Positions 3 to 12,339 of a stretch of 35,137 nt of DNA are shown here, piece by piece; the stretch's first letter is position 1, and the number at the start of each line of letters is the position of its first letter. The notes under the pieces were generated by a model that saw only the letters and a program-made list of their open reading frames with translations, searched no databases and was not told the origin of the DNA. The position numbers were made by a program, and so were the translations under genes. Origin of the DNA: Candidatus Rokuibacteriota bacterium (GTDB lineage Bacteria > Methylomirabilota > Methylomirabilia > Rokubacteriales > CSP1-6); the NCBI GenBank assembly GCA_003220335.1, contig QHSB01000242.1, positions 1-35,137 of the forward strand, given 5' to 3'.

Positions 3-287
3 AGCACTCTCAAGGTCTTCATCACGCAGCCGCGGAACAACGACACCGTCAGTGGCACCGCCTGGGTCGTGATCTGGGTGGAGGGCACGAGCGGGTCGTC
101 CAACGTCTTCACGCTGAGTGCCGATGGCAAGCAGGTCGGCACGCAGACGACGTCATCGCGCGGGCCCGTTACCTTGCCGTGGGACACGCGGTCGGTGATC
201 AACGGCACCCACACGCTGACGGCGACGGTGCGAGACGCGCAGGGCAACACCGGCACAGCCAGCATCACCGTCATCGTGAGGAACTAA
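3..287 (+). CDS. Ig-like domain protein, C-terminal fragment
   Basis: The reading frame is open from the window edge, so the N-terminus lies outside. About 94 residues are visible and form one bacterial Ig-like repeat: an opening strand (VFITQPRNNDTVSG), a middle with FTLSADGKQVG, and the typical ending GTHTLTATVRDAQGNTGTAS followed by a last strand ending in RN. Such beta-sandwich modules are found in secreted or surface proteins and often carry other domains upstream. The family assignment rests on this pattern; the function of the whole protein cannot be judged. Its TAA stop shares three bases with the TAG stop of the convergent cheD gene. Confidence is good for the fold and low for the role. 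Confidence 0.7.
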   Translation, partial: STLKVFITQPRNNDTVSGTAWVVIWVEGTSGSSNVFTLSADGKQVGTQTTSSRGPVTLPWDTRSVINGTHTLTATVRDAQGNTGTASITVIVRN

Positions 288-859
288 CGGCCCGCGTCGG
301 CAGGCGGAAACAGGGTCACGCCGCCGGAACGCGGCGACCGCTGCAGGGTGGAGAGATGCGTGGTTTCCTCCATGGACGTCTGGCGGATGGTGCGGCGTCC
401 GAGTCGCTTCACGTACGCCGCCCCGGTGTCCGTGTAGAAATGGACGCGCCTCGGCAGATATCCCCCCAGATCCCAGCCGAGCACGGGAACGCGTTCGGTC
501 GCCAGGAACTGCTGGATGAATCTGATGTTCTGGGCGGGCACGCTGTCGGTCTGCGCGCTGAAGGCGAGCACGTGACCGCCGCCGAAGACCTTCGCTTGCA
601 GGCGGCGCCGGTCGCCACCGCTCTTTTGCATGGCCCCGATCAGCAGCTCCATGGCGTGGATGCCGAATCGCGCGGGATCGGCAGGCGTATCGCCGTTGCA
701 GGGCGTCGGGAGCAGGAAGTGATTCATCCCTCCCAGCCGCAGAACCGGATCGAACAGGCAGACGGCGATGCACGATCCCACGACCGTCTTGATCACGGTC
801 GGTTCCTTGGCGACGTGAATCTTGCCGATGTGAATCGTGACGCCCGGGCGAGGGGTCAT
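284..859 (-). CDS. cheD: Chemoreceptor glutamine deamidase CheD
   Basis: CheD deamidates specific glutamines on methyl-accepting chemotaxis proteins and in some bacteria also interacts with a CheC phosphatase. This 191-residue protein has the family core: the nucleophile motif GSC with C30, the strand CLFDP, and GGMNHFLLP with H47 as catalytic base; T25 is the likely third member. Downstream, KVFGGGHVL and the closing segment with GGYLPRRVHFYTDTG fit the family. The C-terminal 25 or so residues are an extension without a recognised motif. The gene is last in the chemotaxis operon; its ATG overlaps the cheR stop (ATGA), so the two are probably translationally coupled. No CheC is encoded nearby, so CheD may act only as a deamidase. 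Confidence 0.93.
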   Translation of the reverse strand: MTPRPGVTIHIGKIHVAKEPTVIKTVVGSCIAVCLFDPVLRLGGMNHFLLPTPCNGDTPADPARFGIHAMELLIGAMQKSGGDRRRLQAKVFGGGHVLAFSAQTDSVPAQNIRFIQQFLATERVPVLGWDLGGYLPRRVHFYTDTGAAYVKRLGRRTIRQTSMEETTHLSTLQRSPRSGGVTLFPPADAGR

Positions 860-1773
860 GGGGCGGGCGGCCGGTCAGTGTGACGCGCCCGGTTTCGGTA
901 GACGGAATTGGCCACGTGCTCGAGGCCCGCCTGAAGACCGAGCAGCGACTCGGAATGTCCGAGAAACAGCAGACCGCCGGGCCGCAGGAAGTGGACCAGC
1001 CGTTGCAGTATCCCTCGCTGGCCCGGCTTGTCGAAGTAGATCGTGACGTTGCGGCAGAAGATCGCGTCGAACTGGGTACGGATCGGCCAGCCCTCGTGCA
1101 CCAGATTGATGCGCCGAACCTTCACGAGCTCTCGCACCTCGGGAGCGATCTGGACCAGATGTCGACCGTGAATCGAGAGCCGGGTGAAGTAGGGCTCGCG
1201 CAGCCGCGGAGGGACGGACCGCAGCGACTCCTCGGGGTACAGACCCGCCTGGGCGACCGACAGCATGTCGGTATCGATGTCCGAGGCGAGGATTTTCACG
1301 TCCCAGCGCGCCGGAGCGAGCGCCGCCAGCACGGTCATGGCGATGCTGTACGCCTCTTCCCCACTGGAGCACCCCGCGCTCCACAGCCGGAGCCGTCGCA
1401 CATCCTCGCCGGGACCGGCCGCGCGCGCCCGCTGCTCCGTCACGTAGCCTCGAAGGACGTCGAAATGATGGAGCTCGCGAAAAAATTCCGTCTTGTTGGT
1501 GGTGATGGCGTTGATCAGCGCCTGCCGCTCGGCGCCGGCGGGATCGCGCTCGCGCAGATGCTCGTGATACTGCTGGAATGTCCGGTAGCCGTAATGCCGC
1601 AAGCGCTTGCCGAGTCTCGCGCACACCAGCTCCCGCTTGCTGTCGCCAATGGCGATGCCGGTGCACTCGCGCACCAGCACCTGGAACAATTTGAACTCCG
1701 CCTCGGTGATCCGCGCCGAGGCGGTGGAGGCGTCGCCGTCGAGTCGCCCGTGTCCGGCCATCTCGTGACGCAC
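856..1773 (-). CDS. cheR: Chemotaxis protein methyltransferase CheR
   Basis: CheR transfers methyl groups from S-adenosylmethionine to glutamates of chemoreceptors during adaptation. The 305-residue protein has the N-terminal helical domain with TNKTEFFRE, the SAM-binding motif SAGCSSGEEAYS, a middle ASDIDTDML segment and FCRNVTIYFD near the C-terminus, followed by GGLLFLGHSES; all are CheR signatures. I chose the GTG at 1773 because AGGAGG lies four bases upstream; an ATG at 1761 is the alternative and would be too far from it. There are 14 bases between the cheW stop and this start. The usual antagonist, CheB methylesterase, is absent from the operon. There are about 20 poorly conserved residues after the last motif. 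Confidence 0.95.
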   Translation of the reverse strand: MRHEMAGHGRLDGDASTASARITEAEFKLFQVLVRECTGIAIGDSKRELVCARLGKRLRHYGYRTFQQYHEHLRERDPAGAERQALINAITTNKTEFFRELHHFDVLRGYVTEQRARAAGPGEDVRRLRLWSAGCSSGEEAYSIAMTVLAALAPARWDVKILASDIDTDMLSVAQAGLYPEESLRSVPPRLREPYFTRLSIHGRHLVQIAPEVRELVKVRRINLVHEGWPIRTQFDAIFCRNVTIYFDKPGQRGILQRLVHFLRPGGLLFLGHSESLLGLQAGLEHVANSVYRNRARHTDRPPAP

Positions 1774-1787
1774 GCGCCCTCCTGGGG

Positions 1788-2234
1788 TTACGCCGGGCTC
1801 GGTAGCGGCGTGGACGGGTCCTCTCGCAGGATCGTGTCGAGGCTCAACAGCACGATCAAGCGCTCGCCGACGTGCACGAGGCCGGCGATGAATCGCGTCT
1901 CGGCGTGGGCGCCGAACTCGGGCGGCGCCTGGACCTCGGCGTGCTGGATATCGGCGACATCCGAGACCTCGTCGACGAAGAGCCCGACGATCTTCGCTCC
2001 GACGGTGACGACGACGATCGCCGAAAACCGCATGTCGGAGGTTTCCGGCATGCCGAGGCGGCAGCGGAGATCGACGACCGGCACCACGGTGCCCCGCAGG
2101 TTGATCACGCCCTTGACGTAGGCGGGCGTGTTGGGAATCGGCGTGATCCGCGAATGGCCCCTGATTTCCTGGACCCTGAGGATCTCGATCGCGTACTCCT
2201 CGCGCCCGAGCTTGAACGTCAGATACTGTGCCAT
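1788..2234 (-). CDS. cheW: Chemotaxis coupling protein CheW
   Basis: CheW links chemoreceptors to the CheA kinase in the signalling array. The 148-residue protein starts [18 protein letters not shown] and continues with VQEIRG, the motif GVINLRGTVVPVVDLR and GLFVDEVSDV, which define the single CheW-like SH3-type domain; length is normal. The ATG at 2234 overlaps the last base of the mcp TGA stop, and its ribosome-binding site GAGGAG lies inside the last codons of mcp. Translation of receptor and coupler is therefore probably linked. No unusual residues were noticed beyond a proline-rich last ten residues. Confidence 0.95.
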   Translation of the reverse strand: MAQYLTFKLGREEYAIEILRVQEIRGHSRITPIPNTPAYVKGVINLRGTVVPVVDLRCRLGMPETSDMRFSAIVVVTVGAKIVGLFVDEVSDVADIQHAEVQAPPEFGAHAETRFIAGLVHVGERLIVLLSLDTILREDPSTPLPSPA

Positions 2235-3895
2235 CAAAACTCCTCGAAGCTTTCGTCGCCCCGGAGCGCCGCCCCGTTCGTGGTCGGCGCCGTCATCACG
2301 GCGGCCGACCGCCGGGACGAGCGATGCGCGGTGGTCCGGACCTGCCGTCCGAGCGACACGGTAGCCGGCGCCGCCGGCGCGGTCTGCCGGCCACCGTCGT
2401 CGAGGCGGAACCGACCGACCAGGTCCTGCAGCTCGCCCGACTGGGCCGCGAGTGTCTCCGCCGTCGACGTGAGCTCCTCCGTCTGGGCGGCGACGCCCTG
2501 GACCACCTGGTCCATCTGCGTGACGGCCCGGTTCACTTGCTCGATCCCGACCGCCTGCTCGCGCGAGGCACTCGCGATGTCCGTCACGATCGTCGTCACC
2601 TGTTTCACCGACCCCACGATGTCGTGCAACGTCTGACCGGACTTGTTGACGAGCCCGGCCCCGTCGTCGATCTTCATCACGGAGTCCTGGATGAGCGCCT
2701 TGATCTCCTTGGCCGCTTCGGCGCTTCGCTGCGCGAGGCTGCGGACTTCCGCGGCGACCACCGCGAAGCCGCGGCCTTGCTCGCCCGCGCGCGCCGCCTC
2801 GACGGCGGCGTTGAGGGCGAGCAGATTCGTCTGGAACGCGATGTCGTCGATCACGGCGATGATCTCGGCGATCTTCCGCGCCGCGCGCGTGATTTCCTGC
2901 ATCGCGGTCACCGCCTCGGACACGACCTGACCCCCCGCCTCGGCCGTGTCCCGCGAGCCGATGGCGAGCCGGCTGGCCTCCTGGGCGTTGGCGGCGTTCT
3001 GGCGCACGGTCCCCGTGAGCTCCTCCAGCGAGGCCGCGGTCTCCTCCAGGGAGGACGCCTGCTGCTGCGAGCCCGTCGACAGCTGCTGGGACGCCTCGGA
3101 CAGCTGCTCGGCGGCGATGCCGACCTGCGCCGACGCCTCGCGGATCTGGCGGACGAGCCGCTGCATGTTGTCGAGGAAGGTGTTGAGCGAGCGCGCGAGC
3201 TGTCCGGTTTCATCCTGCGAACGGGCGTCCAGCCGGACGGTCAGGTCGGCCTCGCCGGCCGCCAGCTCCTGAAGCCGCTGCGCGGCCTGCCGCAGCGGAC
3301 GCACCATCAGGCGGGCGACATACACGTAGACGCCGACGCCGAGCACCAGCGCCAGCAGCCCGACGCCGCTGAAGGTCCACGCCGCCGACTGCGCCATGGC
3401 CGTGATCTCCTCGGTCGACACGCCGATGCGCAGGACGCCGAGCCGGTTGGACTGCGCTTTCACGGGCACCGCCACCTCGTACACGCCGCTCGAAGGGGTC
3501 GGGCGCCGGACGAGACTGTGGATCCTCAAGGCGGCGGCCTCGAACTCCGTCCGGGTGAGCGTCTGGTTGCGCAGCGTGACGTCGGTGCTGGCGACGCCGC
3601 GGCCGTCGTTGCCGACGAGGATGGCGTAGGCGATGTCGCGATCCGCGGCCTTGGCCGCCTCGAGGATCTGCTGAAGCTGGTCGTATTCGCCCATCGCGAA
3701 CGGATCGCCGGCCGCGGTGGCGAGGTTACGCGCCAGACTCTCGGACTTCCGCTCCAGCGAGCGCGACAGCGAGGCGTTCTGCGCCTGCACGAACATGACC
3801 CCCAGCGCCACGATGGCGCCCACGAAGATGCTGATGAAGGGCACCACCAGCTTCACGGTCAGGCTCCAGCGTCGAAGACCGGATTCGGCCACCAT
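2234..3895 (-). CDS. mcp: Methyl-accepting chemotaxis protein with periplasmic sensor
   Basis: Transmembrane chemoreceptor of 553 residues. The layout is: cytoplasmic start, TM1 about 12-35, a periplasmic sensor about 36-172 that looks like a single-Cache/PAS-like fold ([15 protein letters not shown], then [22 protein letters not shown]), TM2 about 173-195, HAMP about 195-250, then the long signalling coiled coil. The hairpin tip at about 350-382 ([32 protein letters not shown]) is the CheA/CheW contact region. The start is set by AAGGAGGAG before ATG 3895; the frame stays open far upstream but that part overlaps the binding-protein gene. The C-terminus reads SFEEF, matching the x-aromatic-x-x-aromatic tether pattern used by CheR/CheB. 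The upstream binding protein is the likely ligand partner (inference). Confidence 0.93.
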
Positions 3896-3912: not shown

Positions 3913-5094
3913 TCACCGCGTCTTCTGGAGTTCTCTCCAGTCGGCGAAGACCGTGGCCCGGCCGTCCCGCACCAGGGTGTAGTACACGCTGCTGAATCCC
4001 TTGTGATTGCGGGGGCCGTAGCTGAGCTTGAGCTGGGGACCGAGTCCGATGTCCAGGTCCCGGATGGATTCGATCGCGTCCACGAGCCGCTCGCGCGTGA
4101 GGTCTCGGCCCGCGCGCTTGAGCCCCTCGACCATGACCACCGCGTCGACGTAGCCCTCGAGGCTGACGAAGTTCGGCTGGGCCTCGGGGAAGTATTTCTT
4201 GAGCGCCTTCTGATAGAGGGCGACGGTCGGGATGTCGGCGCGCGTGGGCGGCGGCACGACCTGGGTGATCACGACGCCCTCGCCGTCCTTGCCGGCGGCC
4301 TTGATGAACGCCTCGGTCCCGACGAACGAGACGGTGAGATACAGCGGATTCCACCCCGCGGTCCGGCCCCGCTTCACCATCTCGGCGAGCGGCGCGTACG
4401 GTCCCACCATGACCACCGCGTCGGGGGCGCCCGCCCGCACCAGCTCGAGGCCACGACCGACGTCGAGCGTGTTGCGCGGAAATGAGCCGAGGGCGACGGG
4501 GGCGGCGTTGTATTTCGCGAGGGCGAGCTTCACGCCCTCCAGCACCGCGACGCCGAACGCGTCGTCCTGGTAGAAGACGGCAATCTTGCGCATCCCCAGG
4601 GCGTTCCACAAGTTGTCGACCTGCTCGCGCGCTTCGTCGTAATAGGACGCCCGGACGTTGACGACGTAGCGCTTGAACGGCTCGTGGAGCAGCTGCGCGC
4701 CGGTGAACAGTCCGATGATCGGGATCTTGCTGCTCTCGGCCATGGGCGCGTGCTTGGCGCCGGTCGGGGTTCCGACGAAGAATCCCGCCGCGAACACGTG
4801 CTCCTGCTTCAGCCGGTTGAAGCACTCGATCGCCTTGGCCGGCTCGTAGCTGTCGTCGAGCGACAAGAGCTTGAGCTTTCGGCCGTGGATGCCGCCCTGG
4901 TCATTGACGGTCTGCAGATACGCCCGCGCCCCGAGCACCGTCTGCTGACCAAGGAAGTTCGCGGGACCGTCCAGGGCGGCGCACGACCCGATGAGCACTT
5001 CGGTGTCGGTCACGCCCGGCTCCGCCATCGCGCGCGCGGCCATCGCCAGGCTCGCGAGCAGCATTGCGATTGTCACCACCGTGCTGGCCTTCAT
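3913..5094 (-). CDS. Periplasmic substrate-binding protein in the chemotaxis operon
   Basis: A 393-residue type I periplasmic binding protein of the branched-chain amino acid/amide class (Peripla_BP_6). A Sec signal peptide ([21 protein letters not shown], cleaved near AMA-EP) precedes [19 protein letters not shown], the usual first strand and ligand-loop region. [20 protein letters not shown] and the later [20 protein letters not shown] also fit. ATG 5094 overlaps the cheA stop and has GGAGGGAACCC upstream. No ABC permease or ATPase is encoded in the operon; 17 bases separate it from mcp. By analogy with the maltose-binding protein and Tar, it probably presents a ligand to the adjacent receptor, but this and the ligand are inference. 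It could alternatively feed a transporter encoded elsewhere. Confidence 0.88.
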
Positions 5095-6725
5095 GGGTTC
5101 CCTCCGGTCGTTGTCGACGGCGCCATGGCCCGACGGTCCGGTCTCGCACGGCTCGACGCCAGCAAGCCCGGCACGTCGACGATCAGCGCCACGCTGCCGT
5201 CCCCGAGAATCGTGGCGCCGGCCAACCCCTCGATCTTCCGGTAATTGGTTTCCAGGCTGCGGATCACCACCTGCTGCTGGGCGAGCAGCTCGTCCACGAG
5301 CAGCGCGATTTTCTCGCCGTCGCGCTCGACGATGACCACGACACCGTCCGTCGCCTCCCGCGAAGAGGGCTCGAGGCTGAAGAGCCGGTGCAGCCGGATC
5401 AGGGGCAGCACTTCGCCTCGCAGCGTGAAGGTCTCGACGCCGTGCAGCAGGACGTGGAGATCGCTCGCCCGCGGTCGGACACACTCGACGATCGACAACA
5501 GCGGGACGATGTAGACGCCGCCACCGACCCGCAGGCATTGGGCTTCCAGGATCACGAGGGTCAGGGGCAGCGTGAGGTGAAACGTCGTCCCGCGCCCGCG
5601 CTCGGTCCGGATACCGATCGAGCCGCCGAGCGCCTCGATGTTGCGGGCCACGATATCCATTCCGACCCCACGGCCGGAAATCTCGGAGACGCGGTCGGCC
5701 GTCGAGAATCCCGGCCGGAAGATGAAGGCGAACAGCTCGCGGTCACCGAGGACGTCCGTGGCGGCGATCAGGCCGCCGGCCACCGCCTGCGCGCGGATGC
5801 GGTCGCGGTCCAGGCCCCGGCCATCGTCCGAGACCTCGATGTGGATGTTGCCGCTCTGCTGATACGCGCTGACCTCGACGCGGCCGACGCGATCCTTGCC
5901 CGCGCGCTCACGCTCGTCCGGCGCCTCGATGCCGTGATCGACGGCGTTGCGAACGAGGTGCGTCAGCGGGTCCACGATGTATTCACTGACACTCTTGTCG
6001 ACCTCGGTGGTTTCGCCGCGCGTGTGGAGGACGACGTGCCGGCCGGCGGCGTGGGCGAGATCCCGCACGAGCCGCGGCAGACGGGCGAACACGTGCTGGA
6101 TCGGGACCACGCGGACGTTCATGACCCGCTCCTGGAGCTCGCGCACGCGCCGATCCATGCGTGTCACCGCCTCCTGGAGCGGGCCGTGCACCGGCCCGAT
6201 CCGGGCCACCAGCTCCGCGACCATGGACTGCGAGACGGCCAGTTCGCCGACGAGGTCGACGAGGCGGTCGACTTTTTCCGTTGCCACGCGCAGCGTGCCG
6301 CCGTCGGTCGCCGCGTCGCTCGCGCGCGGAGCCGGCGACGCGCGGCGGATGTCGGCGACGTCGGCAAGCATGCCGAGGGATTCGTCGAGGTCGACGGCGC
6401 TGGTCGGGGACGCCTCGCCCGCCTCTCTGACGAGCGTGCCGAGCGCGTCGGCGGCCGCGAGCAGCTTGTCGGTCACGGCCGCGGTGACGGCCAGATCCCC
6501 CTTGCGCAGGCGCGTCAGAAAATCCTCCAGGCCGTGCGTGAAGCGCGCGATGCGGTCATAGCGCAGCATCCCGCTGAGCCCCTTCAGCGTGTGCGCGCCC
6601 CGGAATATGCGGTCGAGCGTCTCGCGGTCGGTGGGCTCGTGTTCGAGCCGCAGCACGCCTTGCTCGAAGTGACGAACGAGGTCGGCGGCTTCCACGAAGA
6701 ACATCCGCCGGATGTCCTCGCTCAC
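5091..6725 (-). CDS. cheA: Chemotaxis histidine kinase CheA, compact form
   Basis: CheA autophosphorylates and passes phosphate to CheY. The 544-residue protein has an N-terminal Hpt (P1) domain with H45 in AHTLKGLSG, a short Ala/Pro linker, the dimerisation helices (KVDRLVDLVGELAVSQSM), the ATPase domain with N-box HLVRNAVDHGIE, G1 DDGRGLD and G2 GRGVGMDIV, and a C-terminal CheW-like P5 domain that includes SGVYIVPLLSIVE-like residues. It is about 110 residues shorter than E. coli CheA, and the missing piece is the P2 CheY/CheB docking domain between P1 and P3. The GTG start at 6725 overlaps the upstream cheY stop (GTGA). An open frame continues upstream to 7124 but overlaps cheY and has no P1-like content. 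Confidence 0.95.
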   Translation of the reverse strand: MSEDIRRMFFVEAADLVRHFEQGVLRLEHEPTDRETLDRIFRGAHTLKGLSGMLRYDRIARFTHGLEDFLTRLRKGDLAVTAAVTDKLLAAADALGTLVREAGEASPTSAVDLDESLGMLADVADIRRASPAPRASDAATDGGTLRVATEKVDRLVDLVGELAVSQSMVAELVARIGPVHGPLQEAVTRMDRRVRELQERVMNVRVVPIQHVFARLPRLVRDLAHAAGRHVVLHTRGETTEVDKSVSEYIVDPLTHLVRNAVDHGIEAPDERERAGKDRVGRVEVSAYQQSGNIHIEVSDDGRGLDRDRIRAQAVAGGLIAATDVLGDRELFAFIFRPGFSTADRVSEISGRGVGMDIVARNIEALGGSIGIRTERGRGTTFHLTLPLTLVILEAQCLRVGGGVYIVPLLSIVECVRPRASDLHVLLHGVETFTLRGEVLPLIRLHRLFSLEPSSREATDGVVVIVERDGEKIALLVDELLAQQQVVIRSLETNYRKIEGLAGATILGDGSVALIVDVPGLLASSRARPDRRAMAPSTTTGGNP

Positions 6726-7102
6726 TGGGGCGCCTGCACGCGCAGGACGTCGCCGACCACGTCCCGCAGCTGCGCGGGATCGAAGGGCTTGGTGATCCAT
6801 CCGGTCGCGCCGGCGGCCCGGCCCCGCTGCTTGGCCTCGTCGCTCGACTCCGTCGTGAGGATGAGAATCGGAACCGAACGGAAGGCCGGGAATGTCCGCA
6901 TCCGCCTCACCAGGCTGATGCCATCCAGCTCGGGCATGTTGACGTCGGCGATCACGAGGTCGGGGGCGACCTCCTGCACGACGGCCAGGGCCTGCAGCGC
7001 ATCCTCGCTCTCCGCCACCCGATACCCGCCCTCTTCGAGCGCGGAGCGGATCAGCATCCGCATCGTGGGCGAGTCTTCGACGATCAGGATCCTGGCGCTC
7101 AT
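6722..7102 (-). CDS. cheY: CheY-type response regulator (first upstream of cheA)
   Basis: A single-domain receiver of 126 residues. Acidic residues E9 and D10 (IVEDSPTMR) bind Mg, D53 in IADVNMPELDG is the phosphoacceptor, T83 or T84 sits in LILTTES, and K105 in ITKPFDP completes the site. There is no output domain. The ATG at 7102 overlaps the stop of the CheZ-like gene; an open frame reaches 7174, but the extra 24 residues lie inside that gene and lack receiver features. Its position directly before cheA suggests it is a CheA phosphorylation target. It could be the motor-binding CheY or a phosphate sink for the second CheY; sequence alone does not decide. Confidence 0.93.
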   Translation of the reverse strand: MSARILIVEDSPTMRMLIRSALEEGGYRVAESEDALQALAVVQEVAPDLVIADVNMPELDGISLVRRMRTFPAFRSVPILILTTESSDEAKQRGRAAGATGWITKPFDPAQLRDVVGDVLRVQAPQ

Positions 7103-7680
7103 GCCTGGGACGCCTTCGCAGCACCGTCCGCGTTGCGCTCCTTCGTCAGGTGGTCGGCCAGCTCCTGGCGCCACGGCGCCACCATCGCCGGCGAACCGAG
7201 CTTGGCGGCCAACCGGCCGGGAGCCGCCTGCTCGTCAGCGGCGCCGGATGGCAGGATCATCAGCACCTGTGACAGCTGCTCCTGCAGCTCCTCGATCGTA
7301 TCGATGGCCGCCCGCAGATATTGGGCCGTGAGGTCCTGGAACTGCATGTCGTCGCCGATCCGGGCGATCGCCGTCCCCAGCACCTCGAGCGACTGGGAGA
7401 CGTCATCCCATGCCTCCTGGGTTTCGGGGATCTCGCGGGAGGCGGCGCTCGAGAGCAGGGTGACGCCGTCGCGCAGTCGCGCAACGGCGGCGGACGAGCG
7501 ATCGGCCGCGTCGAGTACGTGCTGAGCCGCCGTCTCCGTCGATTGGATGATTCCCTGCAGCGTCACGATCACAGAAGGCAGCGTCGTGCCGCAGGCCGGT
7601 CGAATCGTGGCGAGTGCCGCCCCGGCGAATTCCGCCGCCACCTGCAGCGCCCGGTCGTCGGCGCCCGCGTCGACCGTCAC
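7099..7680 (-). CDS. cheZ: CheZ-like CheY-P phosphatase
   Basis: CheZ dephosphorylates CheY-P. This 193-residue, mostly helical protein carries MQFQDLTAQYL in its second half. That matches the CheZ active-site helix, where an Asp and a Gln four residues later (D143/Q147 in E. coli CheZ) contact CheY; here they are D116 and Q120. The flanks (long alpha-helical stretches, a charged variable tail) also fit, though overall length is slightly below the E. coli protein. The GTG start at 7680 overlaps the upstream cheY stop (GTGA) and its own stop overlaps the next cheY. Placement between two cheY genes supports the role. I see no obvious C-terminal CheY-tethering peptide, although the tail is basic and alanine-rich. 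Confidence 0.8.
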   Translation of the reverse strand: MTVDAGADDRALQVAAEFAGAALATIRPACGTTLPSVIVTLQGIIQSTETAAQHVLDAADRSSAAVARLRDGVTLLSSAASREIPETQEAWDDVSQSLEVLGTAIARIGDDMQFQDLTAQYLRAAIDTIEELQEQLSQVLMILPSGAADEQAAPGRLAAKLGSPAMVAPWRQELADHLTKERNADGAAKASQA

Positions 7681-8072
7681 GGCCGTCCTCCTGGTACCGT
7701 CGGGCGCGGGCCGACGAGATCATTGACCTTCTCGGCCAGCGTGTCGGCGTCGAACGGCTTGATGATGTAGGCATTGACGCCCGCCTCGAGGGCTTCGCGA
7801 ATATCCTCCTCCGCGCCCACGCCCGTGATCATGAGCACCGGGAGATCGCGCAGCGATGGCGCGCTTCGGAGGGCACGCAGCAGCTCGAGGCCCGTCATTT
7901 CCGGCATCGCCCAGTCGACGATGAGCAGATCGACCGTGCTCCTAAGCATCTTGATGAGGGCGACGCGCCCATCTTCAGCCTCGTCGATGCCGTCGAAGCC
8001 GGCGCTTTTCAGATTCGTCGCGATGATTCGCCGCATGGTCGGTGAGTCGTCGACCACCAGGATTCGGGTCAT
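7677..8072 (-). CDS. cheY: CheY response regulator, first gene of the operon
   Basis: A 131-residue single receiver domain: VVDDSPTMRR at the N-terminus gives D8/D9, D53 lies in IVDWAMPEMTG, T83 in LMITGVG and K105 in YIIKPFDAD. The DWxMP sequence at the phosphorylation site resembles motor-type CheY proteins more than the paralog next to cheA does. The ATG at 8072 is preceded by GGGAGGG; the longer open frame to 8231 adds residues with no receiver character. The gene leads the chemotaxis operon, so the operon promoter should lie in 8073-8347, but I could not find a convincing sigma-70 or sigma-28 site there. Confidence 0.94.
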   Translation of the reverse strand: MTRILVVDDSPTMRRIIATNLKSAGFDGIDEAEDGRVALIKMLRSTVDLLIVDWAMPEMTGLELLRALRSAPSLRDLPVLMITGVGAEEDIREALEAGVNAYIIKPFDADTLAEKVNDLVGPRPTVPGGRP

Positions 8073-8869: not shown

Positions 8870-9895
8870 TCACGCGGGGCCGCTCGGCTCCTCCTCGGCC
8901 CCTGCCACCGCCGGGTCCTCGCCTCCCCGCCACGCCACCGGCCTTCGCCGGGTGCGATCGACCGTCAAATTGAACACGTCGAACCGGTTGTAGTAGCCGA
9001 CGACGTCGTGGAACTGCTTGGGCTCCACGCACGCGCGCGTGTCGATCGACGCGTACAGCAATCCCTCGCGGTCCGATAGCACGTCGCCCACCGGCTCCCC
9101 GGTCGGCCCGATCACCATCGAGACCGCGCGCGGGCTCTCCTCGAGCACACGCATGGCATCCTTGCCCAGCGTGGCCAGCTCCTCGCGCATGGCGGCGTCC
9201 ATGAAGCCGGAGGCGACGATGTTGAAGGCCTTGGCCTCGAAGGAATGGGCGCCGGCGCGGATGCGGATGGCGCCGGCCAGGTCGTAGTTCGCCCCACCGC
9301 CGCCGCGAGGGTCGCGCGTGGGCCATACGGGCGGATACGTGGACACGTGGACCTGCTCGCCCTGCGCCATCAGCGTGAACCGCGCGAGCCGGTTGGTGTT
9401 CTCACCGCAGATGAGCATGCCGATGCGGCCCAGGCGCGTCTCGACGACGCGCAGGCCGGAGCCGTCGCCGTTGGCCCACGTGAGCTTTTCCCAGAACGTG
9501 GGCACGAGCTTGCGGTGATGGTTCAGGATCGCGCCATCCTCGCCGATCAACACGTTGCTGTTCCAGAGGCAGCCGACGCTGTCCGCCGTGCCCTCGTTGA
9601 AGCCGAGCGACACCACCATCCCGTGGCGGCGCGCGGCGCCGGCGATGCGCTCCAGCTCGGGGCCGGGACAGCGGATGCTGCTGGCGGCCAGGCGCTTGAA
9701 CCACTCGTGGTTGTGGATGGGCGCGACGACGGCGGACCAGAGCGGGAACGCGGGGATGTACGTCTCGGGGAACGCGATCAGCGCGGCGCCGTTGCGCGCG
9801 GCCTCCTCGATGAGGCTGCACGCCTTCGCGACCGTCTTCGGCGCGTCGAGGAAGACGGGCGCGACGTGGGCGGCCGCGGCCTTGAACGGCGTCAT
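8870..9895 (-). CDS. Nitrilase (carbon-nitrogen hydrolase)
   Basis: Nitrilases hydrolyse nitriles to carboxylates and ammonia. The 341-residue protein has the full catalytic triad of the superfamily: E44 in FPETYIPAFP, K129 in HHRKLVPT and C163 in LICGENTNRLAR. Features such as EQVHVSTYPPVWPTR and a second half with EAKAFNIVASG match true aliphatic/aryl nitrilases (EC 3.5.5.1) more closely than amidase or NAD-synthetase branches, so a nitrile is the likely substrate. ATG 9895 overlaps the stop of the upstream binding protein by one base (TGATG). A frame open to 10717 is a shadow of the binding-protein gene. It is the last gene of a three-gene operon. Substrate and product are inferred from the family. 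Confidence 0.9.
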   Translation of the reverse strand: MTPFKAAAAHVAPVFLDAPKTVAKACSLIEEAARNGAALIAFPETYIPAFPLWSAVVAPIHNHEWFKRLAASSIRCPGPELERIAGAARRHGMVVSLGFNEGTADSVGCLWNSNVLIGEDGAILNHHRKLVPTFWEKLTWANGDGSGLRVVETRLGRIGMLICGENTNRLARFTLMAQGEQVHVSTYPPVWPTRDPRGGGGANYDLAGAIRIRAGAHSFEAKAFNIVASGFMDAAMREELATLGKDAMRVLEESPRAVSMVIGPTGEPVGDVLSDREGLLYASIDTRACVEPKQFHDVVGYYNRFDVFNLTVDRTRRRPVAWRGGEDPAVAGAEEEPSGPA

Positions 9896-11268
9896 CAGGC
9901 GCCCGCTTTCTTCCACGTCTTGATCCAGTTGACCGTCGCCGACGGGTCGTTGTGGCCTTTGCCAGGCTTGGGCCAGTTGGGCGGCGCGGTCATCTGGCCG
10001 ACGGGGATGGTCATGATGCGCTCGGGGTCCCACACGGGAAACGGGTAGTCCGGCAGGTTCTTGCTGAAGCCGACCTTCACGTCCTTGAACGCGCGGTGGT
10101 CTTCCTTGCGAATCGTGACGACGCCCGCGGGCGCCTCGATGCTGAGCCCTTCGAGCTGCCGGATGATCGCGTCGTCCTCCGGCCAGCCGCCGCCGGCCTG
10201 CTTGTTCGCCTTCTCGACGGCGTTCTTGAAGAGATAGAGCCCCGTGTAGGCGGCCTCGGCGGCGTAGGACGGGTACTCGTTCCAGCGCTTCTGGTAGGCG
10301 TCCACGAAGCGCTTGTTGGCGGCGGAGGCGCCGGCCGGCGCGTACGTGAAGTGATAGTTGGAATGCACGCCGGCCAGCGCGCCCTCCGGATGGTCCTTGC
10401 CGATCGCCTGCGGCACGACGCCGAAATTGATGTTGCCGGCCAGGCGCGCTTTGCCGAACATCCCATGGCGCAGCGCCTGCTTGTAGAACGCGACGTACAT
10501 GCCGCCCCACATCGACGTCACGATGATGTCGGGCTTGGCGGCCAGCGTCTTGGTGATGTGCGAGTTGAACTCCGTGGTGCCGAGCGGCGCCCACACCTCC
10601 GAGACGATCTCGGAGGCGGGCAAGAGCTTCTCGCGCGCGGCGTCGAAGTGGATCTGGAACCACCGGCCGAACGCGTAGTCGGGGTTGATCACGGCGATGC
10701 GCCGCACGTCCGGCCACGCCTTCGCGATGGCGAGCGCGGTCGTCACGCCGTCGGCGGACAGGATGTTCGTCATGCCGAACAGGTAGTGCGGGTTGGGCAC
10801 CTCGACCTCGAACAGCTTGTCGATGCAGCCCTCGGTCATGATCGTCAGCAGCTTCAGCTCCTCGACCACGGGACCGACGGCGAGCTGGTTGTGCGCGGCG
10901 ATGACGCCCGAGAAGTAGTCGATCTTCTCGGAGAGCTTCATGCGCTTGACTTCCTTCACCGTGGCCTCGGGCCCGGCCGCCTCGTCGGCGGTGATCGTCT
11001 CGATCTTGCGCCGGCCCAGCAGCCCGCCTGTCGCGTTGATCTCCTCGGCGGCCAGCGTGTGGCCCTTCAGCGAGGGCAGGCCCAGGATCGCGCCGGGCCC
11101 CGACTGGATCGTGATGTGGCCGAACTTCACCGGCGTCTCGGGAATACGGCCCTTGGGCGTGTCCTGCGCGGCGGCGTCGCCGACGGCCGCGAGCTCGCCG
11201 AGCGCCGCGCCGCCGAGCGTGACGCCGAGCCCGGCCAGGAAATCACGCCGATCCAGATCGTTGGCCAT
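9895..11268 (-). CDS. ABC-type substrate-binding protein with Tat signal
   Basis: A 457-residue Peripla_BP_6 protein. The N-terminus MANDLDRRDFLAGLG followed by a hydrophobic stretch and AAAQD is a twin-arginine signal, so it should be exported folded. The mature part has KFGHITIQSGPGAI, AAEEINATGGLLGRR and DYFSGVIAAHNQLA, then NPDYAFGRW, which are typical of amide/urea/short-chain-amide or branched-chain binding proteins. The start is set by AGGAGGGCGT before ATG 11268; a second possible start lies 18 bases upstream. No permease or ATPase is encoded next to it, only the oxidoreductase before it (21-base gap) and the nitrilase after it (one-base overlap). A nitrile or amide ligand is inferred from that context. 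Confidence 0.88.
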   Translation of the reverse strand: MANDLDRRDFLAGLGVTLGGAALGELAAVGDAAAQDTPKGRIPETPVKFGHITIQSGPGAILGLPSLKGHTLAAEEINATGGLLGRRKIETITADEAAGPEATVKEVKRMKLSEKIDYFSGVIAAHNQLAVGPVVEELKLLTIMTEGCIDKLFEVEVPNPHYLFGMTNILSADGVTTALAIAKAWPDVRRIAVINPDYAFGRWFQIHFDAAREKLLPASEIVSEVWAPLGTTEFNSHITKTLAAKPDIIVTSMWGGMYVAFYKQALRHGMFGKARLAGNINFGVVPQAIGKDHPEGALAGVHSNYHFTYAPAGASAANKRFVDAYQKRWNEYPSYAAEAAYTGLYLFKNAVEKANKQAGGGWPEDDAIIRQLEGLSIEAPAGVVTIRKEDHRAFKDVKVGFSKNLPDYPFPVWDPERIMTIPVGQMTAPPNWPKPGKGHNDPSATVNWIKTWKKAGA

Positions 11269-11289
11269 ACGCCCTCCTGTCGCCATGCC

Positions 11290-12273
11290 TCACGCCACCG
11301 CGACGCTGATGATATGGATGCGGTTGCGACCGGCGGCCGGCTGCATCCGGCTCTGCGAGTCGGTCGCGCGCGCGTGCAGCTCGTAGCGGCCGGGCGTGGC
11401 GACGTCCCACGCGTGCGTGAACATCTGCCACTGGTGATCGGCCCCGCGCGGCCTCACGCCCGCCGGCTGCCACGTCTTGCCGGCGTCGGTGCTGACCTCC
11501 ACCGCGCTCACGGGCCAGGCACTCCAGGCCCATCCGGCGATCATGTGGCGGCCGCGCTCCAACGTCGCGCCCTCCGCCGGCGACACGATCACCGCGTGTA
11601 CGTCCAGCTCGCGCACCGGGCGCGGCTCGCCGTCCACGCGGCGCATGTACAGCCGCGTCGTGAACAGGCTTTCCGGGCGCTCGGCGGCCAGCGTGAGGCG
11701 CGAGAGCCACTTCACGTTGTTGGTGCCGAAGTAGCCCGGCACGAACACGCGCGCCGGGAAACCGTGCTCGGCGCTGAGCGGCTCGCCGTTCATCGCCCAC
11801 GCCACCAGCACATCGGGCTCCATCGCGCGCGCCAGCGGCAGATCCTTCACGTAGCGCTCGCTGTGGACGTTGGCGAAGCTGCCGGAGTCCAGGCCCGCGG
11901 GACACACGTAGCGCGCCTCGGGCCGCACGCCGGCGCGCTCGAGCAGATGCGACAGCCGCACGCCGCGCCAGACGACGTTGCCGACGCGGCGCGTGGCGAC
12001 CTCGGGCTCCACGGGGTTGCCGAAGCACTCGAGCACCGCGGTGACGTCGGTCGCCGGCAACGAGGTCAGCGCGTCGTAGTCCAGCTCGAACGGGCGCTCG
12101 ACCAGGCCGTCGACGCTGAGCCGCCACTGCTTGACGTCCACGCGCGCGATGCCCATGTGGGCAATGACGTAGACGTCGTCGCTCGGCGTGACGGGCGACG
12201 CCAGTCGATCGACGGGCACCAGCCGTCGGTACGTCGCGCTCGGATCCATCACCACGCGCGGCTTGTCCGCCAT
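11290..12273 (-). CDS. Molybdopterin-binding oxidoreductase, sulfite oxidase family
   Basis: A 327-residue protein with the two domains of the sulfite oxidase family: an N-terminal molybdopterin domain (ISVDGLVERPFELDYDAL-like start, then C83 in LECFGNPVEP as the likely Mo ligand, VVWRGVRLSHLL, and GYFGTNNVKWLSRL) and a C-terminal Mo-cofactor dimerisation domain with Ig-like fold (EVSTDAGKTWQPA, HAWDVATPGRYELHARATDS). There is no signal peptide or heme domain visible, so it may be cytoplasmic and use an external electron acceptor. The usual CAGN at the cofactor site reads CFGN here, which argues against a standard sulfite oxidase; the substrate is unknown. It leads the operon with the binding protein and nitrilase. 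ATG 12273 has a good promoter just upstream. Confidence 0.85.
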   Translation of the reverse strand: MADKPRVVMDPSATYRRLVPVDRLASPVTPSDDVYVIAHMGIARVDVKQWRLSVDGLVERPFELDYDALTSLPATDVTAVLECFGNPVEPEVATRRVGNVVWRGVRLSHLLERAGVRPEARYVCPAGLDSGSFANVHSERYVKDLPLARAMEPDVLVAWAMNGEPLSAEHGFPARVFVPGYFGTNNVKWLSRLTLAAERPESLFTTRLYMRRVDGEPRPVRELDVHAVIVSPAEGATLERGRHMIAGWAWSAWPVSAVEVSTDAGKTWQPAGVRPRGADHQWQMFTHAWDVATPGRYELHARATDSQSRMQPAAGRNRIHIISVAVA

Positions 12274-12283
12274 CGTGGGCCGG

Positions 12284-12311
12284 ATTATGAGCCGGGTCGC
12301 CGGGGAGTCAA
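12284..12311 (-). promoter_or_regulatory. Sigma-70-like promoter of the oxidoreductase operon
   Basis: On the minus strand, TTGACT (12306-12311) and CATAAT (12284-12289) are 16 bases apart, each one base from consensus. The expected transcription start falls within about three bases of the ATG at 12273, giving a nearly leaderless message; no Shine-Dalgarno sequence is present. The whole 28-base block matches 27255-27282 at 24 positions, including the spacer segment CGACCCGGCT. Confidence 0.6.
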
Positions 12312-12339
12312 GGATCGCGTGCGTATCGAACATTGGCCA

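Follow-up and report, generated by a model that had tools for sequence, protein, structure and literature searches.

Maltose-binding protein of E. coli presents its ligand to the periplasmic domain of the chemoreceptor Tar. In TorT-TorS and LuxP-LuxQ, a dedicated type-I binding protein is encoded with its receptor and without a transporter; TorT and LuxP presumably belong to SBP families other than Peripla_BP_6. Activation of receptors by SBPs is an accepted mechanism in which at least 13 SBP families are involved (PMC9602780), and in archaea BasB, CosB and two further putative binding proteins were copurified with their transducers (PMC3579733). The BasB-BasT and CosB-CosT pairs of Halobacterium salinarum are credited to Kokoeva et al. 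(2002) in PMC3579733; BasT senses Leu, Ile, Val, Met and Cys. The best-known examples of binding protein-assisted chemoreception are dual-use transporter receptors and a few archaeal pairs. A literature search, thin on subscription journals, returned no Peripla_BP_6 gene in a che operon and no description of chemosensing binding proteins in Rokubacteria.

The window, that is, the whole stretch of 35,137 nucleotides analysed here, is contig C72 of the genome of a soil bacterium from the Candidatus Rokuibacteriota, an uncultured group (G000; 5.5 Mb in 743 contigs, 95% complete, 7% contamination). On its minus strand a binding protein (BP) gene stands within a che operon in the order cheY-cheZ-cheY-cheA-BP-mcp-cheW-cheR-cheD, with the following features:

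284..859, minus strand: cheD (Pfam)
856..1773, minus strand: cheR (Pfam)
1788..2237, minus strand: cheW (Pfam)
2234..3895, minus strand: mcp, two-TM chemoreceptor (MCP) with HAMP and MCPsignal domains, 553 aa (Pfam; TM segments by inspection and AF2 helices)
3386..3778, minus strand: sCache_3_2 ligand-binding domain (LBD) of the MCP, residues 40-170 (Pfam, 3.8e-10, above cut-off); proposed docking site of the BP
3913..5094, minus strand: BP gene, Peripla_BP_6, 393 aa from an ATG start (translation; Pfam, 9.9e-54)
5091..6725, minus strand: cheA with Hpt, H-kinase_dim, HATPase_c and CheW domains, 544 aa (Pfam)
6722..7102, minus strand: cheY-like response regulator (Pfam)
7099..7680, minus strand: cheZ-like phosphatase (Pfam CheZ, 7.4e-8, just above cut-off)
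7677..8072, minus strand: cheY-like response regulator (Pfam)

The cheA stop and the BP start share ATGA at 5094-5091, a 4-bp overlap, and the BP stop codon (3915-3913) is separated by 17 bp from the mcp ATG, which begins at 3895; both distances agree with the first-pass annotation, on the minus strand. AAGGAGGAG stands upstream of mcp. Junctions of 4 and 17 bp are typical of a translationally coupled operon. The same annotation had noted that no permease or ATPase is encoded, and indeed the LivG and LivM profiles had zero matches in the window and Pfam scans of its main ORFs revealed no transporter permease or ATPase. A second Peripla_BP_6 gene of the window (9895-11286, minus strand) adjoins a sulfite-oxidase-type molybdopterin oxidoreductase (11290-12333, minus strand); no adjacent transporter gene was found there either.

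Like BasB-BasT and CosB-CosT, the pair in the window combines a periplasmic-type BP with a methyl-accepting transducer. The archaeal pairs serve flagellar taxis, whereas the window pair belongs to a full bacterial che operon in genomes where FlhA was mostly not found; moreover, it has an sCache_3 LBD and its BPs form a clade that is presumably separate from BasB. As in the case of maltose-binding protein and Tar, the BP would give its ligand to the periplasmic domain of a chemoreceptor (mechanism summarised in PMC9602780). However, maltose-binding protein serves mainly in transport and its gene lies with those of its transporter, while the BP in the window has no transporter genes alongside, and Tar has a four-helix LBD that also binds aspartate directly, whereas the LBD of the window MCP is sCache_3_2. 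TorT-TorS and LuxP-LuxQ resemble the window in the pairing of BP and receptor genes, but their output is a histidine kinase.

Genome G000 contains 47 Peripla_BP_6 matches, two MCP matches and two CheA matches, and a Peripla_BP_6 gene is located directly upstream of both MCP genes. The second MCP/CheA pair lies on contig C162, where the stop of the Peripla_BP_6 gene precedes the mcp start by 11 bp. In this genome the target BP is most similar to two proteins, the BP of C162 (40% identity) and one on contig C314 (35% identity), which sits in a Liv operon. This C314 paralogue has an open frame of 1051 aa and was considered as a signalling-domain fusion, which was rejected, as it is a normal Liv operon in which frames run together. 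Assuming about 5,000 genes in 5.5 Mb (estimated) and the 47 matches, the chance of a Peripla_BP_6 gene beside one given MCP is p ~0.02, and directly upstream of both it is roughly 1e-4.

The pairing was then followed in relatives, in which 48 CheA neighbourhoods were scanned with purpose-built profiles. Clusters of the C162 type read cheY-cheW-BP-mcp-cheA-..., and the BP is kept in most family members having the cluster. The closest homologue of the target BP, with 67% identity, was found in genome G076 directly upstream of an sCache MCP; there the operon reads BP-mcp-cheW-cheA-cheR-cheY-cheD, so that the pair is retained and the other genes are reordered. The LivG and LivM profiles had no match directly beside this homologue. 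Among the members of the BP clade defined by the tree below, that of L166 is next to the MCP of a deltaproteobacterial che cluster, and others are next to histidine kinases (G117, G165, G188 and Bdellovibrionota). In the acidobacterium L178 the adjoining gene begins with two TM segments, and profiles alone indicate receiver and kinase pieces. The idea that an unrelated transport gene had been inserted was rejected, as the pair of BP and MCP is seen again in the rearranged G076 operon and, in many genomes, in the second cluster. At L031:10440-10520, the MNRRRFLG (Tat-like) signal peptide of the C162-type BP is one frame off the mature protein, by either an assembly error or a real frameshift.

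In the reverse direction, 290 genomes were searched with an alignment of BP-linked LBDs. This revealed 31 LBD loci scoring at least 185 bits, of which one is cut by a contig end. In 29 of the 30 informative loci the BP was directly upstream, including G038:C59 with a C-terminal remnant only; the one locus without it was G025:C17. Among weaker sCache matches (about 64-100 bits) a BP was present in 1/25 fetched loci, and among LBD loci of 100-126 bits in 1/7. Comparing 29/30 with 1/25 gave a Fisher p of 2e-13, which overstates the independent evidence because the loci are related and some helped to build the alignment; a good part of the 30 loci are closely related to one another, and therefore they represent few independent events. 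Distances of BP and LBD correlated with r = 0.98 over 31 pairs and 0.90 over 11 divergent pairs, although shared descent alone could also give this correlation. In G025 no orthologous BP was found anywhere in the genome at clade-typical profile scores, though the sCache LBD is kept; its best matches to the BP profile reach 172 bits and are Liv-linked.

Alternatively, the BP gene might have been inserted between cheA and mcp by chance, from among the many Peripla_BP_6 genes, and have no function there. The 47 matches of this very abundant family would allow for such an event, as would closely related operons without the BP. Nevertheless, the pairing occurs at both MCPs, is conserved in many genera and appears again in other phyla as well as in a reordered operon, the junctions are of the coupled-operon type, and the reverse search already largely refutes the idea, which we regard as extremely improbable.

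Two of the related operons lacking the BP were compared with the window. Genomes G005 and G026 contain an orthologous operon in the same order, with CheA 54-55% and the cytoplasmic part of the MCP 57-59% identical. The BP slot is occupied by a protein of ~190 residues whose start resembles a signal peptide and which matches dCache_1 weakly. The secreted Cache-like slot proteins of these operons are located as follows:

L071:9097-9668, plus strand: secreted Cache-like slot protein
L070, ~7000-7650, minus strand: secreted Cache-like slot protein

The MCPs of G005 and G026 have a TarH/4HB LBD without detectable similarity to the LBD of the window. In G014, which has the other cluster type, the BP is absent and the MCP LBD is dCache-like, below the Pfam cut-off. 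According to the first-pass annotation, relatives that keep the operon and lose the BP without change in the receptor would speak against a dedicated pair. The opposite was found in G005 and G026, where the LBD differs too, while a loss of this kind does occur in G025. The soluble Cache-like protein of ~190 aa between cheA and mcp in G005 and G026 is possibly a second kind of detachable sensor.

Both MCPs of G000 have an LBD that matches sCache_3_2 above the Pfam cut-off, and the same holds for the MCPs of G076 and L166 and the kinases of L139 and L172. The L183 kinase matched sCache_3_2 below the cut-off, and the G165 kinase beside a clade member showed a weak match to the TorS sensor domain instead. 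In the AF2 model helices flank the LBD of the window MCP, as for a periplasmic domain between two TM segments. The LBD itself was modelled as single-Cache/PAS-like with a moderate pLDDT of 75, and its Foldseek neighbours are WalK, DcuS and CitA. With phmmer, the window LBD had no meaningful match in the PDB, and a profile search against solved structures reached DcuS, weakly. At the positions of the DcuS carboxylate arginines the window LBD has no arginine, and the position of the DcuS histidine is a serine. The missing arginines agree with an LBD that would read a BP and not a free acid.

DcuS and CitA bind small carboxylates directly. The MCP could therefore sense a ligand of its own via the sCache domain, in which case the BP would serve transport or scavenging and have only the operon in common with the receptor; DcuS, CitA and WalK are indeed among the nearest solved relatives of the sCache_3_2 LBD, and G025 keeps this LBD without the BP. 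Against this, the LBD class is near-obligately linked to the BP, the carboxylate arginines and the histidine of DcuS are not kept in the window LBD, and orthologous operons that differ in the slot protein also differ in the LBD. We consider this explanation very unlikely.

To place the BPs relative to transport proteins, a tree of 93 rows was calculated with IQ-TREE (LG+C20, PMSF). All receptor-linked BPs (31/31, with five of these labels set by hand from the neighbour scan, and that of L148 by near-identity to L149) fall within one clade of 39 rows with support 100/99, which comprises several phyla, with MCP neighbours in Rokubacteria and a deltaproteobacterium and histidine kinase neighbours elsewhere. 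The target BP forms a subclade (100/99) with those of G076, G117 and an acidobacterium. Liv-transport BPs are for the most part not in the receptor-linked clade; the Rokubacterial ones (C314 type) branch just outside it. For eight of the 39 rows of the clade no receptor neighbour was recognised, and in two of these cases Liv genes are in range. Tandem arrays of up to ~10 Peripla_BP_6 genes were observed at L184 and L187 (Desulfobacterales, deltaproteobacterial genome).

The tree also bears on a possible dual use of the BP, which might supply a Liv-type ABC transporter from another locus, either an orphan or a promiscuous one, and in addition report to the MCP, as maltose-binding protein does with MalFGK and Tar. 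The many Liv-type BPs and Liv genes of G000 and the two clade members with Liv genes nearby would be in line with this. However, transporter genes are absent from the operon and from the homologous che operons (G076 and C162 type), and the tree sets the Liv BPs of Rokubacteria apart from the receptor-linked ones at full support; dual use is therefore unlikely, in our view.

The BP scored 183.7 bits against Peripla_BP_6 (curated Pfam cut-off 31.7). By inspection, residues ~1-24 form an apparent cleavable signal peptide in which a lipobox cysteine is absent. The AF2 model (pLDDT 92.5) shows the two-lobe fold of type-I SBPs. The closest solved homologue, 4kv7 (phmmer 5e-57; Foldseek TM 0.87, 34% identity), is a putative Leu/Ile/Val-binding protein of Rhodopirellula baltica. 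Glu226 of LivJ (reference sequence identical to PDB 1z15), the residue holding the amino group of bound leucine, aligns with Ser256 of the BP in a sequence-based alignment, and Ser is likewise present in the 17 clade members compared. Against NCBIfam NF011933 (branched-chain amino acid binding protein) the BP reached 55 bits, below the cut-off of 477. An ordinary leucine-binding protein is a weakened candidate, given the lost amine anchor, the low NF011933 score and the tree. Since the anchor Glu226 of LivJ aligns with Ser256, the ligand may perhaps, with low confidence, lack an alpha-amino group.

Taken together, the BP is probably the ligand-capturing half of a two-part chemosensor formed with the adjacent MCP. 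The claim of the first-pass annotation that the operon carries its own BP-receptor pair, with the BP as a dedicated chemosensor, is supported by the comparative tests: the pairing at both MCPs of G000 and in G076, the contrast between 29/30 and 1/25 loci, the change of the LBD along with the slot protein, and the clade. The BP-mcp pairing in other genomes, which it had suggested to look for, holds for nearly the whole LBD class and extends to the rearranged operon and the deltaproteobacterial cluster (L166). In the proposed mechanism, the BP would be secreted to the periplasm and capture a ligand as a type-I binding protein; the loaded BP would then dock on the periplasmic sCache_3 domain of the neighbouring MCP, which would relay the signal via HAMP to the CheA/CheW/CheY/CheZ module, with CheR and CheD in adaptation. 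As output, type IV pilus-dependent surface motility or other pilus-linked behaviour would be likelier than swimming.

FlhA (FHIPEP profile) was not found in G000; it was present in 6/80 genomes and absent from most Rokubacteria examined. An assembly gap could explain the missing FlhA in G000 alone, though not in most relatives. PilT-family ATPases were detected in 9/9 genomes examined, including G000 above the cut-off. An MshEN-PilB-like ATPase adjoins the G076 operon, and an Arf-like GTPase and a PilB-like ATPase adjoin the C162-type cluster of G002; the Arf-like GTPase beside such clusters is presumably MglA-like. No pilus-related genes were seen beside the window operon. Rokubacteria reportedly carry genes for twitching but none for the flagellar filament (PMC5712423). 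As FlhA was not found and PilT-type ATPases are present, swimming is doubtful, and a pilus-linked or some other output is probable, the link to pili being drawn from neighbours in other genomes. The designation as a chemotaxis operon is therefore correct for the che genes but doubtful in the sense of swimming, and we read it as a chemosensory operon. C162-type clusters are followed by the Arf-like GTPase and an MshEN-domain PilB-like ATPase at L102 (9817-10425 and 10882-13116, plus strand) and L031 (306-914, minus strand), an arrangement that is Myxococcus Frz/Mgl-like.

Three aspects were not found described and are apparently new: a signalling clade of Peripla_BP_6, its near-obligate tie to one sCache_3 subclass in MCPs and kinases, and its location inside chemosensory operons of bacteria in which no FlhA was detected. 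The partner can be predicted from a sequence signature of the receptor domain (29/30 loci), and orthologous operons differ in both, and therefore the docking interface becomes testable by comparison. The pair also suggests a route to the ligands of unculturable bacteria, in which a soluble BP is assayed in place of a membrane receptor. More tentatively, as a reading that is quite possible though not one we would favour outright, the Peripla_BP_6 clade may be a dedicated signalling family over several phyla that forms a portable two-piece sensor with one sCache_3 subclass; the LBD would no longer bind the signal itself, the cassette would have been exchanged between MCPs and histidine kinases, and it might inform pilus-driven, flagella-less Rokubacteria of nearby solutes. 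Where FlhA was not found, chemosensory operons that include a BP point to solute-guided behaviour of another kind than swimming.
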